Shown here: piece by piece, positions 4,624 through 62,958 of the stretch
Numbering within the stretch: the first letter of the stretch is position 1
Layout of the letters: each line of letters opens with the position of its first letter
From: Alphaproteobacteria bacterium
Lineage (GTDB): Bacteria > Pseudomonadota > Alphaproteobacteria > Micropepsales > Micropepsaceae
Assembly: GCA_003139615.1 (NCBI GenBank)
Contig: PLJH01000015.1
Location: 1-64,000 of the forward strand
Reading direction: 5' to 3'
DNA length: 64,000 bases
Notes under the pieces: generated by a model
Database searches by the model: none
The model's input: the letters and a program-made list of their open reading frames with translations, nothing else
What the model was told of the DNA's origin: nothing
Position numbers and translations under genes: made by a program

Positions 4624-5286
4624 ATGTCACCCAGGGAAGCGAGACCCGTCATGTCTGAAAAGGATACCGTTCGTTGTCAGATCATCAGCGCCGCGGGGAA
4701 GCGTTTTTCGCATTTTGGCTATGCCAAGACCACCATGGCGGAAGTCGCCACCGATTGCAGCATGTCGCCCGGCAACCTCTACCGCTTCTTCCCGGGAAAG
4801 CTCGACATCGCCGAGGCGATCGCCACTGAGGATTATGAGAAGCATCTTGTCGTGATGCGCAAGATCGCGGTGGCGCCGGACAAGGATGGCCGCCAGCGGC
4901 TTCACGATCTGTTGTTCGAAGAATTGCGCCGGACCTATCACAAGCTGGAGAAGGATCCCCGCGCTGTCGAGATGGCGCGCACCATTTCGCATGAGCGGCA
5001 GTCATTCGCCAACTGGATGCTGGCCCATGAGCGCACAATCCTTGTCGAACTGCTCGACGAATCCGAACGGCGCGGTGAGTTCGTTCCGCCCGGCGACAAA
5101 GAAGAAATCGCCGAGATGATCCAGTCCGCCACGATGAAATTCCGCTATCCGCAGCTGTGGTCGAAGCTGACGCTCCCGAAGCTCGAACGGGAACTCGAAG
5201 GCGTCTTGAAGCTGATTCTGAACGGTCTTTGTCCGCGTGCTGCTGCCGACCGTGCCGATGCGGCCAAACACGAAGCCGTGGCCTGA
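4624..5286 (+). CDS. TetR/AcrR family transcriptional regulator
   Basis: IISAAGKRFSHFGYAKTTMAEVATDCSMSPGNLYRFFPGKLDIAEAIA HTH; start chosen at the internal ATG at 4624 (ORF opens at 4558). Confidence 0.85.
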   Translation: MSPREARPVMSEKDTVRCQIISAAGKRFSHFGYAKTTMAEVATDCSMSPGNLYRFFPGKLDIAEAIATEDYEKHLVVMRKIAVAPDKDGRQRLHDLLFEELRRTYHKLEKDPRAVEMARTISHERQSFANWMLAHERTILVELLDESERRGEFVPPGDKEEIAEMIQSATMKFRYPQLWSKLTLPKLERELEGVLKLILNGLCPRAAADRADAAKHEAVA

Positions 5287-51152: not shown

Positions 51153-51198
51153 TCACGAGCGATGGAAGATGGTTACCGGCCCGTTTCCGGAATCCTCC

Positions 51199-52371
51199 AT
51201 GACCGAACTCTGCGACCTCTGCCGCCGCGACCAGCTTGAGGCGATTTACGAGCCCGAACGCTCGACGCGCGGCCTCAAAGTCTATCTGTGCCGCCATTGC
51301 GGCCTGCTGCAAAGCCTGCCCCGCATCGACCGCGCCCAACGCGCGCCGGCAGCCGTTTCCGGCGGTGCAGACTGGGGAAATGTGCGCTATGGCAAGGGCT
51401 TCCGCACCGCGGCGGCACTGTCGCTTCTCAGAAAACACACCGATCTCTCTTCAGATCTGGCGCTGCTGGACGTGGGCTCAAATCGCGGCAGCTTTGTGCG
51501 TGCATTCCTGGAGGCGGCCCCGACCGCATCCATTGTTGCGGTAGAACCCGACGAGCGCGTAGCCGAGTCCTGCGGCAAGCTCGATCGCTGCGAACTGGTC
51601 CAGACGCGCATCGAAGACGCGGCCCTCGAAACAGGCCGCTTCGACATCGTCCATTCCTGTCACACGATCGAACATCTGGCCGAACCCGCGCGCGTGCTGG
51701 CCGATCATTGGCGCGTGCTGAAGCCGGGCGGATTGCTTGTGCTCGATGCACCTAACTCCGCCATTCTCGACGCCGACGACATCATCGAAGAATGGTTCAT
51801 CGACAAGCATCTCTATCATTTCTCCGCGCGGACCTTAATGCGCACGGTGGTGGCGGCCGGATTCGAGATCATCGCCGCGCCCGACATCGAGGATCACGCC
51901 AATCTGCTGATCGTCGCCCGCAAGGCCTATACTGCCTATCGTGCGAAAGACATGGACCACCGCGAGGTGGCGGAAGCTTCGCGCCTCGTGGCGCACTACG
52001 GGTCCACGCGTGCCCGCAACCTGGCCGCGCTGACATTCGTCTCCATCGAAATCGCCGGCATGGCGCCAAAGCGCGTGGCGATGTGGGGTGCGGGCCGGCT
52101 GTTTGACACGCTTGTCGTCCATGGCAGCTTCACACCGACCAATCTTTCGCTCCTGATCGATACGCATCTCAAGGCGCATGTGGCCGACCGCTATGGCTGC
52201 AAGCTTGCAGGTCCGGAAGCACTCGCCGAAGCCGATCCCGACGTGATCGTCATCATGTCGCGCGGCTTTGTGGACGAGATCGCGACGGAAGCGCGGCGTC
52301 TCGCACCGCGTGCGGAAATCGTTCTCTACGCCGATCTCTTGGCGCGTGCACATGTCCGGAAGGCGGCTTGA
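51199..52371 (+). CDS. Class I SAM-dependent (putative sugar C-) methyltransferase with N-terminal zinc-binding motif
   Basis: CDLCRRDQL...YLCRHCGLLQSLP; LALLDVGSNRGSFVRAFLEAAP; FDIVHSCHTIEHLAEPARVLADHWRVLKPGGLLVLDAPN; C-terminal VAMWGAGRLFDTLVVHGSF. Confidence 0.83.
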   Translation: MTELCDLCRRDQLEAIYEPERSTRGLKVYLCRHCGLLQSLPRIDRAQRAPAAVSGGADWGNVRYGKGFRTAAALSLLRKHTDLSSDLALLDVGSNRGSFVRAFLEAAPTASIVAVEPDERVAESCGKLDRCELVQTRIEDAALETGRFDIVHSCHTIEHLAEPARVLADHWRVLKPGGLLVLDAPNSAILDADDIIEEWFIDKHLYHFSARTLMRTVVAAGFEIIAAPDIEDHANLLIVARKAYTAYRAKDMDHREVAEASRLVAHYGSTRARNLAALTFVSIEIAGMAPKRVAMWGAGRLFDTLVVHGSFTPTNLSLLIDTHLKAHVADRYGCKLAGPEALAEADPDVIVIMSRGFVDEIATEARRLAPRAEIVLYADLLARAHVRKAA

Positions 52372-52373
52372 CC

Positions 52374-53285
52374 ATGCCGGCGCAAAGCCAGAAAACATTG
52401 CTCAAACGCGACGCGCCTTCCGCGCGCGAACTCGCGGCGGAAATCGCGGAAGCAGCCCGCTTCACGCGCAAGCATGCGATTGCCTCGATCTATCACGCAG
52501 GATCCGGCCATCCCGGCGGCGCGATGTCGTCAGCCGATATCATGGCTTGCCTGTTCGGAGCCGAACTGAATTTCTGGTCCGACGCCATCAACGATCCGGA
52601 CCGCGACCGCTTTGTTCTTTCCAAAGGTCATGGCGCGCCGGCGCTGTATGCCATTGCCGCGCATCACGGCTTTTGCGACGCGCGCGCCGCTCTCAATCTG
52701 CGCAAGCTCGGAAGCCCGTTCCAGGGTCATCCGCATGTCCTCGACCTGCCTTGGGTCGAAACCAGCACCGGCTCGCTCGGCCAGGGATTTTCGGTGGCGC
52801 TCGGCATGGCGATGGGCCTGAAGCTGCAGAAGAATCCCGCGCGCGTCTACACGCTTCTGGGCGACGGCGAATTGCAGGAAGGCGAAGTGTGGGAAGCCGC
52901 GATGTGCGCCGCCCATCACAAGCTCGACAATCTGTGTGTCGTCATCGACTACAACAAGCTGCAGAGCGACGATCGTAACGATGCGATCATGCGGCTGGAG
53001 CCGCTGGCCGCGAAATGGCGCGCGTTCGACTGGGCCGTGGCCGAAATCAACGGACACGACATCGATGAGATTCTGTCCGCCTTTCGCCGTGCGGGCGCAT
53101 CGCACGGCCGGCCCTCGGTCATCATTGCGCACACGATCAAGGGCAAAGGCGTGCCCTATATGGAAAACATTCCCCATTGGCACGGCAGCGTGAAGCTCAC
53201 CCACGCACAAGCCGAAGAAGCGTTGACGGCGCTCGGCGCAGGCCGCAACGAAATCAAGGAATTGCTCGATGTCGGCGACCGCTGA
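52374..53285 (+). CDS. Transketolase, N-terminal (ThDP-binding) subunit
   Basis: IYHAGSGHPGGAMSSADIMACLF...RFVLSKGHGAPALYAIAA...STGSLGQGFSVALGMAMGLKL...LLGDGELQEGEVWEAAMCAAHHKLDNLCVVIDYNKLQSD. Confidence 0.95.
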   Translation: MPAQSQKTLLKRDAPSARELAAEIAEAARFTRKHAIASIYHAGSGHPGGAMSSADIMACLFGAELNFWSDAINDPDRDRFVLSKGHGAPALYAIAAHHGFCDARAALNLRKLGSPFQGHPHVLDLPWVETSTGSLGQGFSVALGMAMGLKLQKNPARVYTLLGDGELQEGEVWEAAMCAAHHKLDNLCVVIDYNKLQSDDRNDAIMRLEPLAAKWRAFDWAVAEINGHDIDEILSAFRRAGASHGRPSVIIAHTIKGKGVPYMENIPHWHGSVKLTHAQAEEALTALGAGRNEIKELLDVGDR

Positions 53286-54240
53286 AGCACCCGCACTGAT
53301 CGGCACCAGCGGGGATTCCCTGCGCGAGGCATTCGGCAAGGCACTTTCCGGCCTCGCCGATGAGTTTCCCAAACTTGTCGTGCTCGACGCGGATATCGCG
53401 GGTGGCACGGGCGTGCATCATTTCCGCAAGAGTCACCCCGCACGCTTTCTGCAATTCGGCATTGCCGAGCAGAACATGATGGCCGCGGCCGGCGGACTTG
53501 CTGCCGTGGGGTTGTTGCCGGTGGTGACGACCTTCGCCGTATTCTGCCTGCGCGCCATCGAGCAGGCGCGTCTGTCTCTCGCTTACGCGAAGCGTAACGC
53601 CAAGATCGTCGCGAGCCATCCGGGACTCGATGTGGGTCCGGACGGCGGTTCGGCGCAGTCGCTGGAAGATCTTGCGGCATTCCGCGCCATTCCCGGGATG
53701 ACGGTCATATCGCCTGCCGATCCCGTTGAGATGGCGCTCGCGACACGCGCGATTCTGGAATTCGAAGGACCCGTCTATATGCGCACGGGCCGCAGCCCGG
53801 CCATGCGCGTGTTCGGCGACCACCACACCTTCGAAATCGGCAAGGGCAAGATCGTGCGCGACGGCAGCGATGTCACCATCGTGGCGTGCGGAGTCGAAGT
53901 TTCGCGCGCGCTGGAAGCAGCCAAACTGCTGGAGCAGGACGGCGTCTCTGCACGCGTGGTCAATATGGCGACGATCAAACCGATCGACAGCGAATTGCTT
54001 GCGCGATGCGCGGACGAAACCGGTTCAGTTGTCACAGCGGAAGATCACAACATTCATGGCGGATTGGGCGGCGCGGTCGCCGAATCGCTGGCGGCAACGC
54101 GCCCTTGCCCGATTGAATTCATCGGCGTCAAGGACGTGTTCGGCGCCTCCGGCGAACCGGAAGAACTTGCGACGCTTTATGGCCTTACGGCGCCTCACAT
54201 TGCCAAGGCGGCGAAACGCGCGATTGCGCGAAAGGGGTAA
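53269..54240 (+). CDS. Transketolase, C-terminal (Pyr-binding) subunit
   Basis: VVLDADIAGGTGVHHFRKSHPARFLQFGIAEQNMMAAAGGLAAVGLLPVVTTFAVFCLRAIEQARLS...SHPGLDVGPDGGSAQSLEDLAAFRAIPGMTVISPAD. Confidence 0.94.
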   Translation: MSATAEAPALIGTSGDSLREAFGKALSGLADEFPKLVVLDADIAGGTGVHHFRKSHPARFLQFGIAEQNMMAAAGGLAAVGLLPVVTTFAVFCLRAIEQARLSLAYAKRNAKIVASHPGLDVGPDGGSAQSLEDLAAFRAIPGMTVISPADPVEMALATRAILEFEGPVYMRTGRSPAMRVFGDHHTFEIGKGKIVRDGSDVTIVACGVEVSRALEAAKLLEQDGVSARVVNMATIKPIDSELLARCADETGSVVTAEDHNIHGGLGGAVAESLAATRPCPIEFIGVKDVFGASGEPEELATLYGLTAPHIAKAAKRAIARKG

Positions 54241-54243
54241 GCG

Positions 54244-54999
54244 ATGTCGCGCTTTTCGCTGGCAGGCAGAACCGCGTTCGTGACCGGCGGCAGCCGCGGC
54301 ATCGGCCGCGCGATTGCCATCGGGCTTGCGGAGGCGGGCGCCGACGTGGCGCTCAGCTATCGCGAAAAAGCCGACGACGCCCACAACGTCGTGCGCGAAA
54401 TCGAAGCACAGGGACGCCGCGGACTCGCACTCAAAATGGATGTCGCCGACCGGGCAAATGTCGAAGCGGCCGCGAAGGATGCCAAAGGGATATTGGGTGC
54501 GATTTCGATTCTCGTGAACAATGCCGGCATCAACAAACCGACGGATTTCGATCAGGTGACGGACGCGGATTGGGACTCGATTCTCGCGACCAACCTCAAA
54601 GGTCCGTTCGTCTGCGCGCAGGTGTTTCTGCCTTTGCTCGCGCAAGCCGGTGGCGGGAGCATCGTTCATATCGGCTCGGTCAGCGGACAATATGGCGGGC
54701 CACGCACTGCTCACTATGCGGCGTCCAAAGCCGGCCTGATGTCGCTTGCACAAGTGATCGCGCGCTTTGGTGCGCAACATGGCGTGCGTTCGAATGTTGT
54801 GGCCGCCGGACTGATCGCCTCCGATATGGCGGGTGCGGCAATGGCGGCCGCGAGTGTACAGAAAGCAGCCGAAAACATTCTGCTCAAGCGCATGGGCACG
54901 ACGCAGGAAGTGGCCGATGCCGTCGTGTTCCTCGCAAGCGATGCCTCGTCCTACATCACGGCGCAAACGTTGAACGTCAATGGCGGGCTCTATTTCTGA
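54244..54999 (+). CDS. SDR family oxidoreductase
   Basis: RTAFVTGGSRGIGRAIAIGLAEAGADVALSYR...LVNNAGINKPTDFDQV...GGPRTAHYAASKAGL. Confidence 0.95.
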   Translation: MSRFSLAGRTAFVTGGSRGIGRAIAIGLAEAGADVALSYREKADDAHNVVREIEAQGRRGLALKMDVADRANVEAAAKDAKGILGAISILVNNAGINKPTDFDQVTDADWDSILATNLKGPFVCAQVFLPLLAQAGGGSIVHIGSVSGQYGGPRTAHYAASKAGLMSLAQVIARFGAQHGVRSNVVAAGLIASDMAGAAMAAASVQKAAENILLKRMGTTQEVADAVVFLASDASSYITAQTLNVNGGLYF

Positions 55000-56216
55000 T
55001 GGCAAAGACACTTCTCATTGTCTCCGGCGGCATCGAAGCGGCAGACGCCGCCAAGCGCGCCAAGGAAATGGGCTACTACGTCGTGGTCTCCGATCGCGAT
55101 ACGGAGGCGCCCGGTTTTGCCTTTGCGGATTCCTGCCTGATCGCGGATGTTTATGGCGCCGACGAAACGGCCGCAGCTGCCGAACGCTTCAGCCGCAAAA
55201 TCCGCCGCATCGATGGTGCAATCTGCGTGGCTGCGGATGCACCGATGACCGTCGCGGCGATTTCAAAAAAGCTCGGGCTGGGTGGCCTCTCGTTTCAGAG
55301 CGCGCGACTCGCCTCCGACAAGCTCGCGATGAAGCAGCGCTTTCAGGATTCGGGCGTGCCTGTTCCGTGGTTTTCGCAAATTTCCACGCCGCAGGCGCTG
55401 GCGCGCATCGCCATCGAGCGCGGTCGCGATCTTGTGATCAAACCGGTCGACAGCCGCGGCAGCCGCGGCGTGCAGCGTGTGGCCCAGGTCAAGGACCTCG
55501 ACAAGGCGTTCTTCCTCGCGCGATCGCATTCGCCAACAGATCGCGTGATGGTCGAGCAATATCTGAGCGGCCCGCAAGTCTCCACCGAATCCATCGTGGT
55601 GGACTGCAAATGCTACACGCCCGGTTTTTCGGATCGGAACTACGAATATCTCGAACGCTATGCCCCGTTCTTCATCGAGAATGGCGGCGATCTGCCGAGC
55701 AGCCTTCCACCCGACATCCAGGCGAAGGTGAAGGATGTCGTCGCGCGCGCCGCGGCCGCACTCGGCATCGTCAACGGCACCGTCAAAGGCGACATCGTCG
55801 TGCATGACGGCGAACCCTATGTCATCGAGCTTGCAGCCAGGCTGTCCGGCGGCTTCTTCTGCACGCGCGAAATTCCACTCAATACCGGGGTCGATTTCAT
55901 CGGTGCGGCGATCAAGGTCGCGCTCGGCGATCCTGTCTTGCCGGAGGAATTGGAGCCCAAAGAATTCACACCCGTCATCCAGCGTTATGCATTTCCGAAG
56001 CCCGGCAAGGTCGTGTCGGTGACCGGCGCGGAGAATGCCCGCAAGATCCCCGGCGTCGCCGAACTTGTCGTGACGGCGCGGCCGGGCGATGTGATTCCGC
56101 CAGCAGGCGACAAGCGTCCGTCCGCCGCCATGGTTCTCGCCACCGGCGCGTCGCGCGATGCGGCCATTGCCGCTGCAAACGACGCTCTGGCCCAGCTGCG
56201 TATCGAAATCGCATGA
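54999..56216 (+). CDS. ATP-grasp domain-containing protein
   Basis: DAAKRAKEMGYYVVVSDRDTEAPGFAFADSCLIADVY...LASDKLAMKQRFQDSGVPVPWF...DLVIKPVDSRGSRGVQRV...GEPYVIELAARLSGGFFCTREIP. Confidence 0.92.
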   Translation: MAKTLLIVSGGIEAADAAKRAKEMGYYVVVSDRDTEAPGFAFADSCLIADVYGADETAAAAERFSRKIRRIDGAICVAADAPMTVAAISKKLGLGGLSFQSARLASDKLAMKQRFQDSGVPVPWFSQISTPQALARIAIERGRDLVIKPVDSRGSRGVQRVAQVKDLDKAFFLARSHSPTDRVMVEQYLSGPQVSTESIVVDCKCYTPGFSDRNYEYLERYAPFFIENGGDLPSSLPPDIQAKVKDVVARAAAALGIVNGTVKGDIVVHDGEPYVIELAARLSGGFFCTREIPLNTGVDFIGAAIKVALGDPVLPEELEPKEFTPVIQRYAFPKPGKVVSVTGAENARKIPGVAELVVTARPGDVIPPAGDKRPSAAMVLATGASRDAAIAAANDALAQLRIEIA

Positions 56217-58201
56217 ACGCGCCGTTCCCGTTGCGCGAAGCGGGCGCCTCGACGGCGACGCTGCAGCTTTTCGCTTTCTTCCACCTCAATCTCGCGTTCT
56301 CTTCGATCGAAGAGGAACAGCGCGGCGAAGTTATCAAACGCTGTTACTGGCCGCTGCTCGATCTGGCGCAAAACGATGGCCCGATCGGCCTGGAGATCAC
56401 GGGGTTCACGCTGGAGGAAATTGCTGCGCGCGATCCCGAATGGTGCGGACGTGCGCGCGCGCTGATCGCCAAAGGCCGCATCGAGCTGATCGGCTCGGGC
56501 TACGCCCAAATCATCGGGCCTCTCGTGCCGGCGGCCGTCACCGAAGCCAATCTTCGCATCGGCCACGAAATCTATGAGCGCCTGCTCGGATGCCGTCCGT
56601 CGCTCGCACTGGTGAATGAACAAGCTTATTCGGCCGGTCTCGTGGGTCTTTATCTCGACGCGGGTTATCGCGCGCTTCTGATGGATTGGGACAATCCCGC
56701 GGCGCATCATCCGGAATGGCCTGCGGAAACCCGCTATCTGCCCCAACGCGCCATCGGTAGCGACGGACGCGAGATATCGCTTCTGTGGACCAGTACGGTC
56801 GCATTCCAGAAACTGCAGCGCTTCGTTCACGGCGACATGACGCTGGGCGATTATCTTGGTTATGTCGGAAGCCGTCGCGGCTCGCATCCGCGTGCGCTCT
56901 GCCTCTACGCCAGCGACGCCGAGATCTTCGATTTTCGGCCGGGACGCTACAAGACCGAAGAGGCCATCGGCGGTATTAGCGAATGGACGCGTTTCACCCA
57001 GGCACTTGGCGCCATTCGAGCCGAGCCGGGCTGCGAACTCGTGGCGCCCAGCGATGCTTTGAATCTCGCGACTGAAGAAGGCGCAAACCTTCCGCTGCGG
57101 CTGGAGTCGGCCGATTGTCCCGTGCCTGTCAAAAAACAGCGCAAATACAGTCTCGCCCGCTGGGCCGTCACGGGCCGCGACGATGTGGCCATCAACGCCG
57201 CGTGCGAACGCATCTGTCATGAGTTCATCGCACGCGGCGCAGATGAAGCGGCCTGGAAGGAACTCTGCTATCTCTGGTCGGGTGATTTCCGCACGCACAT
57301 CACGGAAAAGCGCTGGACGCTGTTTTGCGAGCGGCTTAAGCGCGCCGAACGGAATTGGACTGTCGAAAAAGCCGGAACGCTCCGCCGGCCGAACGATGTG
57401 CAAAGCATACTGGAACGCCACATCGATATCTCGACACCGTCTCTTTCAGCCACGCTCGATCGCCGGCGTGGGCTGGCCATCGAGCGGTTGACCTTCACGG
57501 GCGACCAGCGCGCCGTCATTGGTGGATTGCCGCATGGCCATTTCGACGACATCGCGCTTCAGGCGGACTGGTACACCGGCGATTGCGTGTTCGAAGCGCC
57601 GGGTGAGCACAAGGTCACGGATCTGGAATGGTGCGAAGCGCATGTGTGGCGCTCGCCGGAAGGCGATCAACTTGCGTCCGCCAAAGCCGGGACATCGAAA
57701 GGCGCGATCGAAAAAATCATGTGTTTCCGCGCCAACGAGCCGCGCGTCGACTTCGACGTGACCTTCCATTGGAGCGATTGGGGCAAGGGCAGCCTGCGTC
57801 TTGGCCACGTCACGCTTCTGCCGGACGCCTTCGATTGGGAAAAGCTTTCCTTAACGACGCACAATGGCGGTAAGGAATGCGAAACCTTTCTCCTTAAGGA
57901 CACGCTCGTCGATCATGGCGCGCCGGTTTCTTTCCTCGTGTCGTCGTCTCATGGGCTCGGAATGACCGAAGGTTGGGCGGCAATCGGCGACGGCAAGACC
58001 ACCATCCGTATCGACGTAGACCGCGTCACAGCGCCGCTTTTGGGCTTCCTGACGCACAAACGGATCGGCGGCAGCCTGTTCTGCCAGTTCGTGCTGTCGG
58101 CGCTCGAACTCGACGAGACCCGCAAGCCTTCGTCCTATATCGCCGGCCCCCGGCGCTTTCGATTTGGCATATCGCGCATGCATTCCGCAGGGAATAATTA
58201 A
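56213..58201 (+). CDS. Glycoside hydrolase family 57-like protein
   Basis: LQLFAFFHLNLAFSSIEEEQRGEVIKRCYWPLLDL...GLEITGFTLEEIAARDPEWCGRARALIAKGRIELIGSGYAQIIGPLVPAAVTEANLRIGHEIYERLLG...NEQAYSAGLVGLYLDAGYRALLMDWDN. Confidence 0.75.
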   Translation: MNAPFPLREAGASTATLQLFAFFHLNLAFSSIEEEQRGEVIKRCYWPLLDLAQNDGPIGLEITGFTLEEIAARDPEWCGRARALIAKGRIELIGSGYAQIIGPLVPAAVTEANLRIGHEIYERLLGCRPSLALVNEQAYSAGLVGLYLDAGYRALLMDWDNPAAHHPEWPAETRYLPQRAIGSDGREISLLWTSTVAFQKLQRFVHGDMTLGDYLGYVGSRRGSHPRALCLYASDAEIFDFRPGRYKTEEAIGGISEWTRFTQALGAIRAEPGCELVAPSDALNLATEEGANLPLRLESADCPVPVKKQRKYSLARWAVTGRDDVAINAACERICHEFIARGADEAAWKELCYLWSGDFRTHITEKRWTLFCERLKRAERNWTVEKAGTLRRPNDVQSILERHIDISTPSLSATLDRRRGLAIERLTFTGDQRAVIGGLPHGHFDDIALQADWYTGDCVFEAPGEHKVTDLEWCEAHVWRSPEGDQLASAKAGTSKGAIEKIMCFRANEPRVDFDVTFHWSDWGKGSLRLGHVTLLPDAFDWEKLSLTTHNGGKECETFLLKDTLVDHGAPVSFLVSSSHGLGMTEGWAAIGDGKTTIRIDVDRVTAPLLGFLTHKRIGGSLFCQFVLSALELDETRKPSSYIAGPRRFRFGISRMHSAGNN

Positions 58202-58249
58202 CCGCGTTCTGCAACCATTGGCGTCGTCAACCCGAAGGACGCAAATATC

Positions 58250-59347
58250 ATGGGGCAACGCGCCACCAAGATTTTTCTGCCGGCCAATGAAACACCGGAC
58301 AACGTCGAACCGATCAATCGCGGCTTTCGCGATTTCACCCAGCCCTGGCTCGATCTGAACGACAAGGCCGTGATGATCACGGGCGGCACCGGCTCTTTCG
58401 GCAAGCATTTCGTCAAGCTGGTGATCGAGCGCTACAAGCCACGCCGTCTGGTGATTTTCTCGCGCGATGAACTTAAGCAATATGAAATGCAGCAGCTGTT
58501 CCCGATGGAGCAGTATCCGTTCATGCGTTATTTCATCGGCGATGTGCGCGACCGCGACCGCCTCGAGCTCGCAATGCGCGATATCGACTATGTGATTCAC
58601 GCGGCAGCCCTGAAACAGGTCCCGACGGCCGAGTACAATCCTTTCGAGTGCATTCGCACCAATGTGTTCGGCGCGGAAAACCTCGTCTACGCCGCGCTGC
58701 GCCGCAATGTGCGCAAGGTGATCGCGCTGTCGACCGACAAGGCCGCCAATCCGGTCAATCTCTATGGCGCTTCCAAGCTCGCCTCGGACAAGATTTTCGT
58801 GGCTGCCAACAATCTGGCCGGCGCGGACGGCACCCGTTTCGCCGTCGTGCGCTACGGCAATGTGTTCGGATCTCGCGGCAGCGTGGTTCCGTTTTTCCGC
58901 AAGCTTGCGGCGGACGGCGCAGAGACCTTGCCGATCACGGATGCGCGCATGACGCGCTTCTGGATCACCCTGACCCAGGGCGTGAACTTCGTGCTGTCGA
59001 GCATGGAGATGACCCGCGGTGGCGAGATATTCGTGCCGAAGATCCCGTCGACCACCATCACCGATGTCGCTACCCTTCTTTGCCCCAAGCTGGGCCAGAA
59101 GATCGTGGGCGTTCGCCCGGGCGAGAAGCTGCACGAGACCATGATCCCGGCCGACGATTCCCGCTGGACGGTCGAGATCGACGACCGCTTTGTGATCCTC
59201 GCGAGTTTCGCCGCGGCGGCCCGCGAAGCCTATCTCAATCGCGGCGCCAAGCCCGTCGCCGAAGGCTTTGCCTATTCCAGCGACACCAATACCGAACAGC
59301 TGGACGCTCGCGGCCTGCAGATGCTGCTCGCCCAGGCGATGGCATGA
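58250..59347 (+). CDS. pseB: UDP-N-acetylglucosamine 4,6-dehydratase (inverting), PseB/FlmA-like
   Basis: KAVMITGGTGSFGKHFVKLVIERYKPRRLVIFSRDELKQYEMQQLFP...VIHAAALKQVPTAEYNPFECIRTNVFGAENLVYAAL...ALSTDKAANPVNLYGASKLASDK. Confidence 0.94.
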   Translation: MGQRATKIFLPANETPDNVEPINRGFRDFTQPWLDLNDKAVMITGGTGSFGKHFVKLVIERYKPRRLVIFSRDELKQYEMQQLFPMEQYPFMRYFIGDVRDRDRLELAMRDIDYVIHAAALKQVPTAEYNPFECIRTNVFGAENLVYAALRRNVRKVIALSTDKAANPVNLYGASKLASDKIFVAANNLAGADGTRFAVVRYGNVFGSRGSVVPFFRKLAADGAETLPITDARMTRFWITLTQGVNFVLSSMEMTRGGEIFVPKIPSTTITDVATLLCPKLGQKIVGVRPGEKLHETMIPADDSRWTVEIDDRFVILASFAAAAREAYLNRGAKPVAEGFAYSSDTNTEQLDARGLQMLLAQAMA

Positions 59348-60579
59348 GCGCGCCTGCCGTCAAGGCCGAGCGCCTTCTCGTCAATCGCTTTCTGCCCTAT
59401 GGCCGCCAGGTCATCGAGGAAGACGATATCGCCGCCGTGGCGGAAGCCATGCGTGGCGAGCTTCTGACGACGGGCCCCTATGTCGGCCGGTTCGAAACGG
59501 CTCTCTGTAAAACCGTCGGCGCGAAGCACGCGGTCGTTTGCGCCAATGGAACGGCAGCGTTGCATATGGCCGCGCGCGCACTCAATCTTGGACCCGGAAC
59601 GAAGGTTATCGTTCCCTCCATCACCTTTCTAGCCACGGCCAGCGCACCGCATTTGAACGGTGCGGACATCGTGTTCGCGGACGTCGATCCGGACACCGGA
59701 TTGATGACACCGAAAACTCTCACCGAGGCTCTTGAGCGCGCCGGCGGTGCCGATGCCGTTTTCAACGTTCATCTGAACGGTCAATGCGGCGCAATCGAAG
59801 AGATTGCGCAGATCGCGCACGCCCACCGCGCCAGAATCGTCGACGATGCCTGCCATTCTCTGGGAACGGGATATGTCGCGGCCGACGGGTCGGCAACGAC
59901 TATCGGCTCAAACGCCTTTTGCGATCTCAGCATTTTTTCGTTTCATCCGGTCAAGTCGATCGCCATGGGCGAAGGCGGCGCGGTGACCGCCAACGATCCG
60001 GAACTGGTCAAGCGGCTCCTGCGCGCCCGCAGTCACGGCATGACGCGCGATCCTTCCGACTTTGTGAATCTCGACGAGGCGTTCGACGAAACCGGCGCGC
60101 CCAATCCTTGGTATTACGAACTGACCGAGCCGGAATTCAACTGGCGCGCAAATGACATTCAATGTGCGCTCGGTGTCTCGCAATTGGGCAAGCTCGGCCG
60201 CTTTGTAGCGCGTCGTCGCGCGATCGCGGCGGCCTATGATTCCTTGCTTGCATCGTTGGCGCCGATCGTCCGTCCGCTCGCGCGCACGCGCCGCGCGTTG
60301 CCGGCGTGGCACCTCTATGTCGCACGCATCGATTTTACGGCAGCCGGCATTTCACGCGCGAAGTTGATGCGCCATCTGTCCGCGCTTGGCATCGGCACCC
60401 AGGTCCACTACTTCCCTGTTCACCGCCAACCCTATTATGCCGACCAATTCGAGACGCCGGAGCTTGCCGGTGCGGATCGGTACTACGCGCAAGCCCTGAG
60501 CCTGCCATTGTTCGCATCCATGACGGTGTCGGATGCCGAGACCGTAGTACAGGCGCTGATCGAGTGCCTGGGCCTTTAA
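59344..60579 (+). CDS. pseC: UDP-4-amino-4,6-dideoxy-N-acetyl-altrosamine transaminase-like, PseC/FlmB-like
   Basis: FLPYGRQVIEEDDIAAVAEAMRGELLTTGPYVGRFE...VVCANGTAALHMAARAL...IVDDACHSLGTGY...FSFHPVKSIAMGEGGAVTAND. Confidence 0.93.
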   Translation: MSAPAVKAERLLVNRFLPYGRQVIEEDDIAAVAEAMRGELLTTGPYVGRFETALCKTVGAKHAVVCANGTAALHMAARALNLGPGTKVIVPSITFLATASAPHLNGADIVFADVDPDTGLMTPKTLTEALERAGGADAVFNVHLNGQCGAIEEIAQIAHAHRARIVDDACHSLGTGYVAADGSATTIGSNAFCDLSIFSFHPVKSIAMGEGGAVTANDPELVKRLLRARSHGMTRDPSDFVNLDEAFDETGAPNPWYYELTEPEFNWRANDIQCALGVSQLGKLGRFVARRRAIAAAYDSLLASLAPIVRPLARTRRALPAWHLYVARIDFTAAGISRAKLMRHLSALGIGTQVHYFPVHRQPYYADQFETPELAGADRYYAQALSLPLFASMTVSDAETVVQALIECLGL

Positions 60580-60791: not shown

Positions 60792-61622
60792 TTATCCGAA
60801 CAACTTGAGCGCGATCTGCGGCGCACTGTTCGCGATCGACAAAGCCTGCACGCCGAGCTGCTGCTTGACCTGCAAGGCGTTCAACTGCGCACTTTCTGTT
60901 GCCATATCGGCGTCGACAAGGTTGCCGATACCGGTGGTGAGCGCAGTGGACAACTGCGAGACGAAGGTCGATTGGATCGAGAACTTCGACACGCCGCTCG
61001 ACAACTGAGCAAGAGCGGAGTCGACGTTGGTCAACGAGGATTCGACCGTTGAGATCATCGTGGACGCCTTCGACTGGGTCGAGATCGAACCGGTCGAAGC
61101 AATCGTCACGATCTTTCCGCTGAGGCTCATGTTTTCCGCCGAAACGGTGATGCGATGCGAACCGTCGGTGGAGGCAAGAGCCGTGATCGTCTTGGTCGAA
61201 CCGTCGATCAGGTTGACGCCGTTGAACTGGGCGTTCTGCACGACCGACGTGATCTGGCCGAGCAGAGCCTGGAAGTTTTCGTTCAACGCCTGACGGCTGG
61301 CGGTGTCGAGCGAAGAGTCGGACGCCGACAGGGCCTGGCTCTTCATTTGGATGAGCAGGTCGGAGATCGACTGACCGGCCGAAAGCGCGACATCGACCGA
61401 GGATGTGGCGCGGCTGAGGCTGCCGCTCACCGCGCTGTAACCCGCAACGTCGCCACGCATATTCTGTGCGATGGCGAAAATGGCGCCGTTGTCTTGCGCA
61501 TCGGCGACCGTCATGCCCGAGTTGACGGCGTTCTGGACGGTGTTCAGCCCAGCATTGGTCATGTTGAGGTACTGGAGCGATTGCATCGCGCCGTTGTTGG
61601 TGTTGACGCTAATCCCGTTCAT
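60792..61622 (-). CDS. Flagellin (copy 1)
   Basis: SVNTNNGAMQSLQYLNMTNAGLNTVQNAVNSGMTVADAQDNGAIFAIAQNMRGDVAGYSAVSGSLSRATSSVDVALSAGQSISDLLIQMK...LGVQALSIANSAPQIALKLFG. Confidence 0.95.
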   Translation of the reverse strand: MNGISVNTNNGAMQSLQYLNMTNAGLNTVQNAVNSGMTVADAQDNGAIFAIAQNMRGDVAGYSAVSGSLSRATSSVDVALSAGQSISDLLIQMKSQALSASDSSLDTASRQALNENFQALLGQITSVVQNAQFNGVNLIDGSTKTITALASTDGSHRITVSAENMSLSGKIVTIASTGSISTQSKASTMISTVESSLTNVDSALAQLSSGVSKFSIQSTFVSQLSTALTTGIGNLVDADMATESAQLNALQVKQQLGVQALSIANSAPQIALKLFG

Positions 61623-61695
61623 TGGATGGTCTCCGTTCTGGTTTGTGTTTGCAAGCGTTTTGCTCGCCGGGCGTTTTGCCCTGCCAGTACCGTTC

Positions 61696-61710
61696 GCAAC
61701 GGCCGTGCCG
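61696..61710 (-). promoter_or_regulatory. Sigma54-type promoter for flagellin copy 1
   Basis: Minus strand CGGCACGGCCGTTGC vs TGGCACGNNNNTTGCW, 74 nt upstream of the ATG. Confidence 0.75.
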
Positions 61711-61799
61711 GAGACGGATTCAGAATTGGCTAACTTTCTTTTGCGAGGCGCGGACGGAAAACATCGTCCCGGACAAATGTGCCGGGCGGCGCAAACGCC

Positions 61800-61814
61800 C
61801 GGTAGAATTTACCG
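61800..61814. promoter_or_regulatory. ftr/FlbD-like palindrome 1 upstream of flagellin 1
   Basis: CGGTA-GAATT-TACCG. Confidence 0.5.
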
Positions 61815-61819
61815 ACCTA

Positions 61820-61834
61820 CGGCAATTCTTGCCG
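61820..61834. promoter_or_regulatory. ftr/FlbD-like palindrome 2 upstream of flagellin 1
   Basis: CGGCA-ATTCT-TGCCG. Confidence 0.55.
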
Positions 61835-61841
61835 GGCGGCG

Positions 61842-61856
61842 CGGCAGAAATTGCCG
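61842..61856. promoter_or_regulatory. ftr/FlbD-like palindrome 3 upstream of flagellin 1
   Basis: CGGCA-GAAAT-TGCCG. Confidence 0.55.
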
Positions 61857-61870
61857 CATTTGATCTAATT

Positions 61871-61911
61871 TAAAAACAAAAGCGGCGCGAAGCTTTCGCC
61901 ACGCGCCGTCT
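61871..61911 (-). terminator. Rho-independent terminator after flagellin copy 2
   Basis: Minus strand: CGGCGCG-TGGCGAAAGCTT-CGCGCCG-CTTTTGTTTTTAA. Confidence 0.85.
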
Positions 61912-61943
61912 TTTGAGACGTTCCGTTCTTGTCGCGCCGAGCG

Positions 61944-62774
61944 TCAGCCGCTCTTGAACAGCGACAAGATGATCTGCGGCGACTGATTTGCGATCGACAG
62001 GGCCTGCACGCCGAGTTGCTGTTTGACTTGCAGGGATTGCAACTGCGCGCTTTCCGTCGCCATGTCCGCATCGACGAGATTGCCGATGCCCGTGGTCAGG
62101 TTGTCTGACAGTTCGGTCACGAACGTACCCTGAACCGAGAGCTTGGATGCGCCGCTCGACAGGCTCGCCAGCGCCGAGTCGACATTGGTGAGGGAGGTCT
62201 CGACTGTCGAGATCATCGCCGAGGCTTTCGACTGGGTGGAGATCGAGCCTGTGGACGCGATCGTGATGATCGAGCCCGAAAGATTCATGTTTTGAGCCGC
62301 GACCGAGATCCTGTGCGAGCCGTCGGACGAGGCGAGGGCCGATATCTGGGTCGTAGATCCGTTGATGAGGTTAAAGCCGTTGAACTCCGCGTTCTGGACG
62401 ATCGAGGTGATCTGGCTGGTCAGCGCCTGGAAGTCCTCGTTCAGCGCCTGGCGGCTTGCCGTGTCGAGCGAGGAGTCGGACGCCGACAAAGCTTGCTGTT
62501 TCATCTGGATCAGCAAATCGGAGATCGACTGACCGGCGGACAGCGCCACATCGACCGATGATGTTGCCCTGTTGAGACTTCCCGAGACCGCCGAATATCC
62601 GGCGACGTCGCCGCGCATATCCTGGGCGATGGCGAAGATGGCGCCATTGTCCTCCGCATCGGCGACCGTCATGCCCGTGTTGATGGCGTTCTGGGTCGCC
62701 CCGAGTTGATCGTTTGTTTCATTGAGATACTGGAGCGACTGCATCGCGCCCATATTGGTGTTTACGCTGAGCAT
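61944..62774 (-). CDS. Flagellin (copy 2)
   Basis: MLSVNTNMGAMQSLQYLNETNDQLGATQNAINTGMTVADAEDNGAIFAIAQDMRGDVAGYSAVSGSLNRATSSVDVALSAG...LGVQALSIANQSPQIILSLFKSG. Confidence 0.95.
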   Translation of the reverse strand: MLSVNTNMGAMQSLQYLNETNDQLGATQNAINTGMTVADAEDNGAIFAIAQDMRGDVAGYSAVSGSLNRATSSVDVALSAGQSISDLLIQMKQQALSASDSSLDTASRQALNEDFQALTSQITSIVQNAEFNGFNLINGSTTQISALASSDGSHRISVAAQNMNLSGSIITIASTGSISTQSKASAMISTVETSLTNVDSALASLSSGASKLSVQGTFVTELSDNLTTGIGNLVDADMATESAQLQSLQVKQQLGVQALSIANQSPQIILSLFKSG

Positions 62775-62854: not shown

Positions 62855-62869
62855 GCAAGCGCCGTGCCA
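62855..62869 (-). promoter_or_regulatory. Sigma54-type promoter for flagellin copy 2 (consensus match)
   Basis: Minus strand TGGCACGGCGCTTGC matches TGGCACGNNNNTTGC at every defined position; 81 nt upstream of the ATG. Confidence 0.85.
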
Positions 62870-62943: not shown

Positions 62944-62958
62944 CGGCATTTCTTGCCG
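62944..62958. promoter_or_regulatory. ftr/FlbD-like palindrome upstream of flagellin 2
   Basis: CGGCA-TTTCT-TGCCG. Confidence 0.5.

Follow-up and report, generated by a model that had tools for sequence, protein, structure and literature searches.

The NtrC enhancer of glnA consists of strong tandem dyads that precede a sigma54 promoter by about 100-140 bp, and canonical NtrC sites carry arms of the TGCAC type. Among flagellar genes, the closest described case is the FlbD-ftr system of Caulobacter (PMC3930126, PMC3096577), in which ftr4, located upstream of fliF, is an FlbD-bound repressor site (PMC3930126). Here, we analyzed a 64-kb stretch of DNA (hereafter, the window) from an uncultured alphaproteobacterial genus, in which three closely spaced palindromes precede a flagellin gene, flagellin 1. 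Judging from sequence comparison, these palindromes very probably constitute a tandem enhancer of the ftr type, composed of putative FlbD sites and driving flagellin 1.

Palindromes and promoters at the tandem flagellin genes

The two flagellin genes are arranged in tandem on the minus strand, and the array lies upstream of the downstream copy. The features of the region are the following:

60792-61622, minus strand: flagellin 1, 276 aa, the putative target gene (open reading frame and flagellin families)
61669-61681 and 61651-61667, minus strand: two tandem mini-hairpins in the flagellin 1 5'UTR, with covariation in 21 relatives
61696-61710, minus strand: sigma54 (-24/-12) promoter of flagellin 1, CGGCACG-N4-TTGC, CGGCACGGCCGTTGC (pattern scan, 1 mismatch)
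61719-61733, minus strand: CtrA-like dyad, TTAG-N7-TGAA, preceding the sigma54 element of flagellin 1 by 23 bp
61770-61784: degenerate fourth slot, CGGACAAATGTGCCG, about -74, set 30 bp (about 3 turns) away from slot 3, with 2 mismatches in the arms
61800-61814: ftr-like palindrome, slot 3, CGGTA-GAATT-TACCG, CGGTAGAATTTACCG, about -104 from the sigma54 element, exact (10/10 arm bases)
61820-61834: ftr-like palindrome, slot 2, CGGCA-ATTCT-TGCCG, CGGCAATTCTTGCCG, about -124 from the sigma54 element, exact (10/10 arm bases)
61842-61856: ftr-like palindrome, slot 1, CGGCA-GAAAT-TGCCG, CGGCAGAAATTGCCG, about -146 from the sigma54 element, exact (10/10 arm bases)
61877-61914, minus strand: probable intrinsic terminator of flagellin 2, an inverted repeat GGCGCG...CGCGCC followed by TTTT
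61944-62774, minus strand: flagellin 2, 276 aa, 82% identical to flagellin 1
62855-62869, minus strand: sigma54 promoter of flagellin 2, TGGCACGGCGCTTGC (exact pattern match)
62944-62958: single ftr-like palindrome of flagellin 2, CGGCATTTCTTGCCG, exact, at -89 from the flagellin 2 sigma54 site

The preliminary description had placed three CGGYA-N5-TRCCG palindromes at 61800, 61820 and 61842, with starts 20 and 22 nt apart, at a distance upstream of a sigma54-type promoter that would suit an enhancer. Inspection of the sequence and a pattern scan bear out this layout: the palindrome starts precede the -24 element by 104-146 bp, and, measured edge to edge, the closest palindrome is 89 bp away from it. 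The sigma54 element of flagellin 1 is kept in relatives, and the position of the fourth slot, degenerate here, is intact or carries a single mismatch in relatives L051, L053, L056, L057 and L166.

Exact CGGYA-N5-TRCCG palindromes occur 7 times in the window, against 0.29 ± 0.54 expected from dinucleotide shuffles, none of which (0 of 100) reached 7. No good sigma54 element adjoining the window palindromes at 4770, 10223 and 24668 was found in the pattern scan. Genome-wide, where the tests were pattern searches, the exact palindrome is present in 57 places, most of them away from flagellar promoters, so that a lone palindrome is not diagnostic. Two exact palindromes 3-9 bp apart, in turn, occur in this genome only at the flagellin 1 array, and the reversed-pattern control for this tandem arrangement gave 0 matches in the genome. 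Association with sigma54 promoters, which the preliminary description had anticipated, was also recovered: of the 51 palindromes listed, 5, distributed over 3 promoters, are no more than 200 bp from a sigma54 site with at most 1 mismatch, compared to 0.44 expected (P ~1e-4 by sites and 0.01 by promoters, for the 51 listed palindromes and 100 sigma54-like sites).

Several other candidates were set aside. Exact dyads with AT-rich centres at C13, C73, C82, C87, C97 and C44 lie in or near genes without an obvious flagellar role and were thus assigned to the background, and a weak dyad and sigma54 pair belonging to the gene at C33:62141-62593 was unsupported, this gene having no relatives in 30 other genomes. 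Separately, an orphan Ser/Ala/Gly-rich protein of 160 aa (L029:2138-2620, minus strand), also without relatives in 30 other genomes, is preceded by an exact dyad, at L029:2742, and by a weak sigma54 element.

Further elements of the flagellin 1 promoter region are conserved. A CtrA-like dyad (TTAR-N7-YTAA) is positioned at -22 to -24 from the sigma54 element in 20 of the 21 fla1-type promoters of the genus and has no fixed offset in the fla2-type (upstream flagellin) promoters of the genus, which suggests a further layer of cell-cycle control. The two 5'UTR hairpins, located near the expected flagellin mRNA start, are of the GGGC-AAAAC-GCCC and GAGC-AAAAC-GCTC type, with loops that are mostly AAAAN. 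In helix 1, 94.5% of the cells across the genus are paired and 10 cells are changed on both sides, a result as high as which was obtained in none of 500 shuffles. In Caulobacter and Brucella, the flagellin 5'UTR is a proposed target of FlbT binding (PMC4347634). The conservation of the hairpins suggests a candidate site for FlbT or another RNA-binding protein and, with it, post-transcriptional control.

Beside the flagellins, positions 51169-60579 (plus strand) carry sugar/polysaccharide-type genes, including NAD-dependent epimerase-like and aminotransferase-like genes, transketolase halves, an SDR and an ATP-grasp gene. Judged from the translations, this run is possibly a flagellin glycosylation locus.

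Recurrence of the dyad at flagellar promoters and among relatives

Further flagellar genes of this genome also have the dyad. A copy with 1 mismatch (AGGCAAACATTGCCG) lies upstream of fliF at L024:12507, and two more with 1 mismatch each, at L025:3238 and 3256, lie between flgK and the fliK-flgD genes, at a hook-class promoter whose sigma54 element is weaker (2 mismatches). Across alphaproteobacteria, a dyad with at most 1 mismatch precedes fliF in 55 of the 66 FlbD loci with a readable fliF upstream region, versus 8.9% of background windows of the same size from the same loci. Furthermore, among 53 sigma54-bearing flagellin promoters, 47 have the dyad upstream, with 83 sites against 1.98 expected from mononucleotide shuffles.

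Within the genus, the slots of fla1-type promoters are fixed, at about -146, -124 and -103 relative to the sigma54 element. With at most 1 mismatch allowed, slots 1, 2 and 3 are intact in 10, 14 and 13 of 17 such promoters, respectively, and a gapped alignment comprising 21 promoters gives a conservation of 0.89 for the dyad arms versus 0.56 for the linkers; these figures are somewhat circular, because the fla1 promoters were chosen partly by having slots, a flaw of which the fliF-locus and 53-promoter counts are free. Slot losses differ between species and the register stays. Without gaps, per-column information content failed to distinguish the arms from the linkers, as the slots shift by 1-2 bp. 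Many upstream flagellins of the genus have one slot near -89, and the offset seen at flagellin 2 recurs, to within 3 bp, in about ten further fla2-type promoters.

The helical phasing proposed in the preliminary description finds support across species. Spacings between dyads cluster at 17-23, 30-34 and 43 bp, with a Rayleigh R of 0.72 at 10.5 bp for 36 spacings and of 0.67 when each spacing pattern is counted once; spacings of 13-14 bp, which represent overlapping weak calls, were left out. Phasing from the long spacings alone is weakly supported (P ~0.03), and the spacing P values are indicative only, given the phylogenetic dependence among promoters.

The probable reader of the dyad

Five clear genes for sigma54 activators were found in the genome. 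One of them encodes FlbD (NCBIfam equivalog NF050807, 802.3 bits against a cut-off of 750) and lies beside flhA and a FliH-like gene; fliF is located further upstream, as in the gene order of Caulobacter. NtrC and NtrX are among the other activators. The recognition region of FlbD, GNRTHAANILGISIRTLRNKL, is identical in the FlbDs of the Caulobacter metagenome-assembled genomes (MAGs) L106, L119 and L133, and is unlike those of NtrC and two further EBPs of this genome.

The encoded FlbD, the enrichment near sigma54 sites and the recurrence of the dyad at fliF and flagellin promoters, including those of Caulobacter MAGs, support the assignment of the array to a sigma54-activator enhancer of the FlbD/ftr type. 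Under the mechanism that we propose, FlbD dimers would bind each 15-bp dyad via a Fis-type HTH. With the dyads about two helical turns apart, the dimers would be placed on one face of the DNA, which would favour cooperative assembly of an AAA+ hexamer, and DNA looping would then carry the hexamer to the sigma54-RNA polymerase at 61696-61710. Transcription of flagellin 1 would thereby be driven late in flagellar assembly.

The dyad is also associated with a gene that has no Pfam or NCBIfam match (C33:24664-25515, equivalent to L027:4661-5515, minus strand). In all 18 genus genomes first examined, the dyad lies upstream of this gene, and in most it is followed, 54-69 bp on, by a recognisable sigma54 element; the surrounding DNA has diverged. 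In many relatives with both on one contig, the gene lies about 20 kb from the flagellins, and it is a predicted, unannotated member of the FlbD regulon. Searches did not find FlbD or flagellin in three of these 18 genomes, the relatives G005, G014 and G017, where the dyad of this gene is nevertheless intact (L209, L216 and L205, respectively), and the sigma54 element is clearly so in at least 2 of them. Thus, FlbD may not be the sole reader of the dyad; either the loss of FlbD is recent or another activator may read the site.

An alternative explanation for the array itself is that a different sigma54 activator recognises the dyad, either by itself or together with FlbD, the candidates being NtrC and an orphan response regulator (C128:17332) that resembles Caulobacter TacA. 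The retention of the dyad in the three relatives that lack FlbD and flagellin is consistent with this possibility, as is their retention of 2-3 other EBP paralogues. However, in a further FlbD-less relative, G024, both the dyad and the sigma54 element of the same gene are eroding, as expected after a recent loss, and the fliF dyad tracks FlbD-bearing loci. Moreover, the recognition helices of NtrC and of the C128-type regulator differ strongly from that of FlbD, and the arms of the flagellin array, CGGYA/TRCCG, are not of the canonical NtrC type. We therefore regard this explanation as improbable. Somewhat less doubtful, albeit still unlikely, is a broader proposal, namely, that CGGCA-N5-TGCCG is a cis-code common to FlbD, at flagellar promoters, and to another activator, either TacA-like or of the NtrC type, at the conserved uncharacterised gene, where the site would have outlasted FlbD and flagellin.

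The palindromes might instead have a role other than that of an enhancer, as a piece of the terminator region of flagellin 2, as RNA hairpins or as a dispersed repeat, given their location immediately past the end of flagellin 2 and its probable terminator. We consider this highly improbable: the palindromes lie beyond that terminator, which probably separates the array from flagellin 2 transcription, and upstream of the flagellin 1 start; they keep a constant distance from the sigma54 promoter, and the linkers are variable; the dyad is also found at unrelated promoters, such as that of fliF; and Rfam gave no match in the flagellin 1 upstream region, hairpins included. Chance occurrence in GC-rich DNA, which probably accounts for most of the 57 exact genomic copies, has next to no likelihood for the array and is in effect refuted by conservation in register, with three palindromes in 57 bp kept across about 20 relatives with diverged linkers.

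Comparison with described enhancers

The reading of the array as a putative FlbD enhancer extends a classical regulatory element of Caulobacter to an uncultured alphaproteobacterial genus and defines the FlbD dyad across species as CGGYA-N5-TRCCG with relaxed ends, together with promoter offsets and helical phasing. With this definition, FlbD regulons become predictable from sequence.

The array resembles the NtrC enhancer of glnA in having short-arm palindromes placed in tandem on one face of the DNA and distant from the -24/-12 element, but it differs in the arm sequence and in the activator, and is not a member of that class. The likeness to the ftr elements of Caulobacter crescentus, present at fliF (ftr4), hook and flagellin promoters, is closer, with short dyads about 100 bp from the -24/-12 element, sigma54 flagellin promoters, a dyad upstream of fliF and an identical FlbD recognition helix in common. 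In the Caulobacter MAGs of the set, the dyad lies about 70-75 bp before fliF, and flagellin promoters carry one dyad or two; where there are two, they are exact palindromes with a spacing of 30 bp. By contrast, in the locus described here, three dyads spaced by two turns occupy rigid slots at one flagellin gene, and a single dyad precedes its tandem paralogue. The likeness rests on position, at fliF and flagellin, and on the conserved HTH, rather than on base-by-base correspondence. The array is very probably a well-formed example of the control element first described in Caulobacter and not a new kind.
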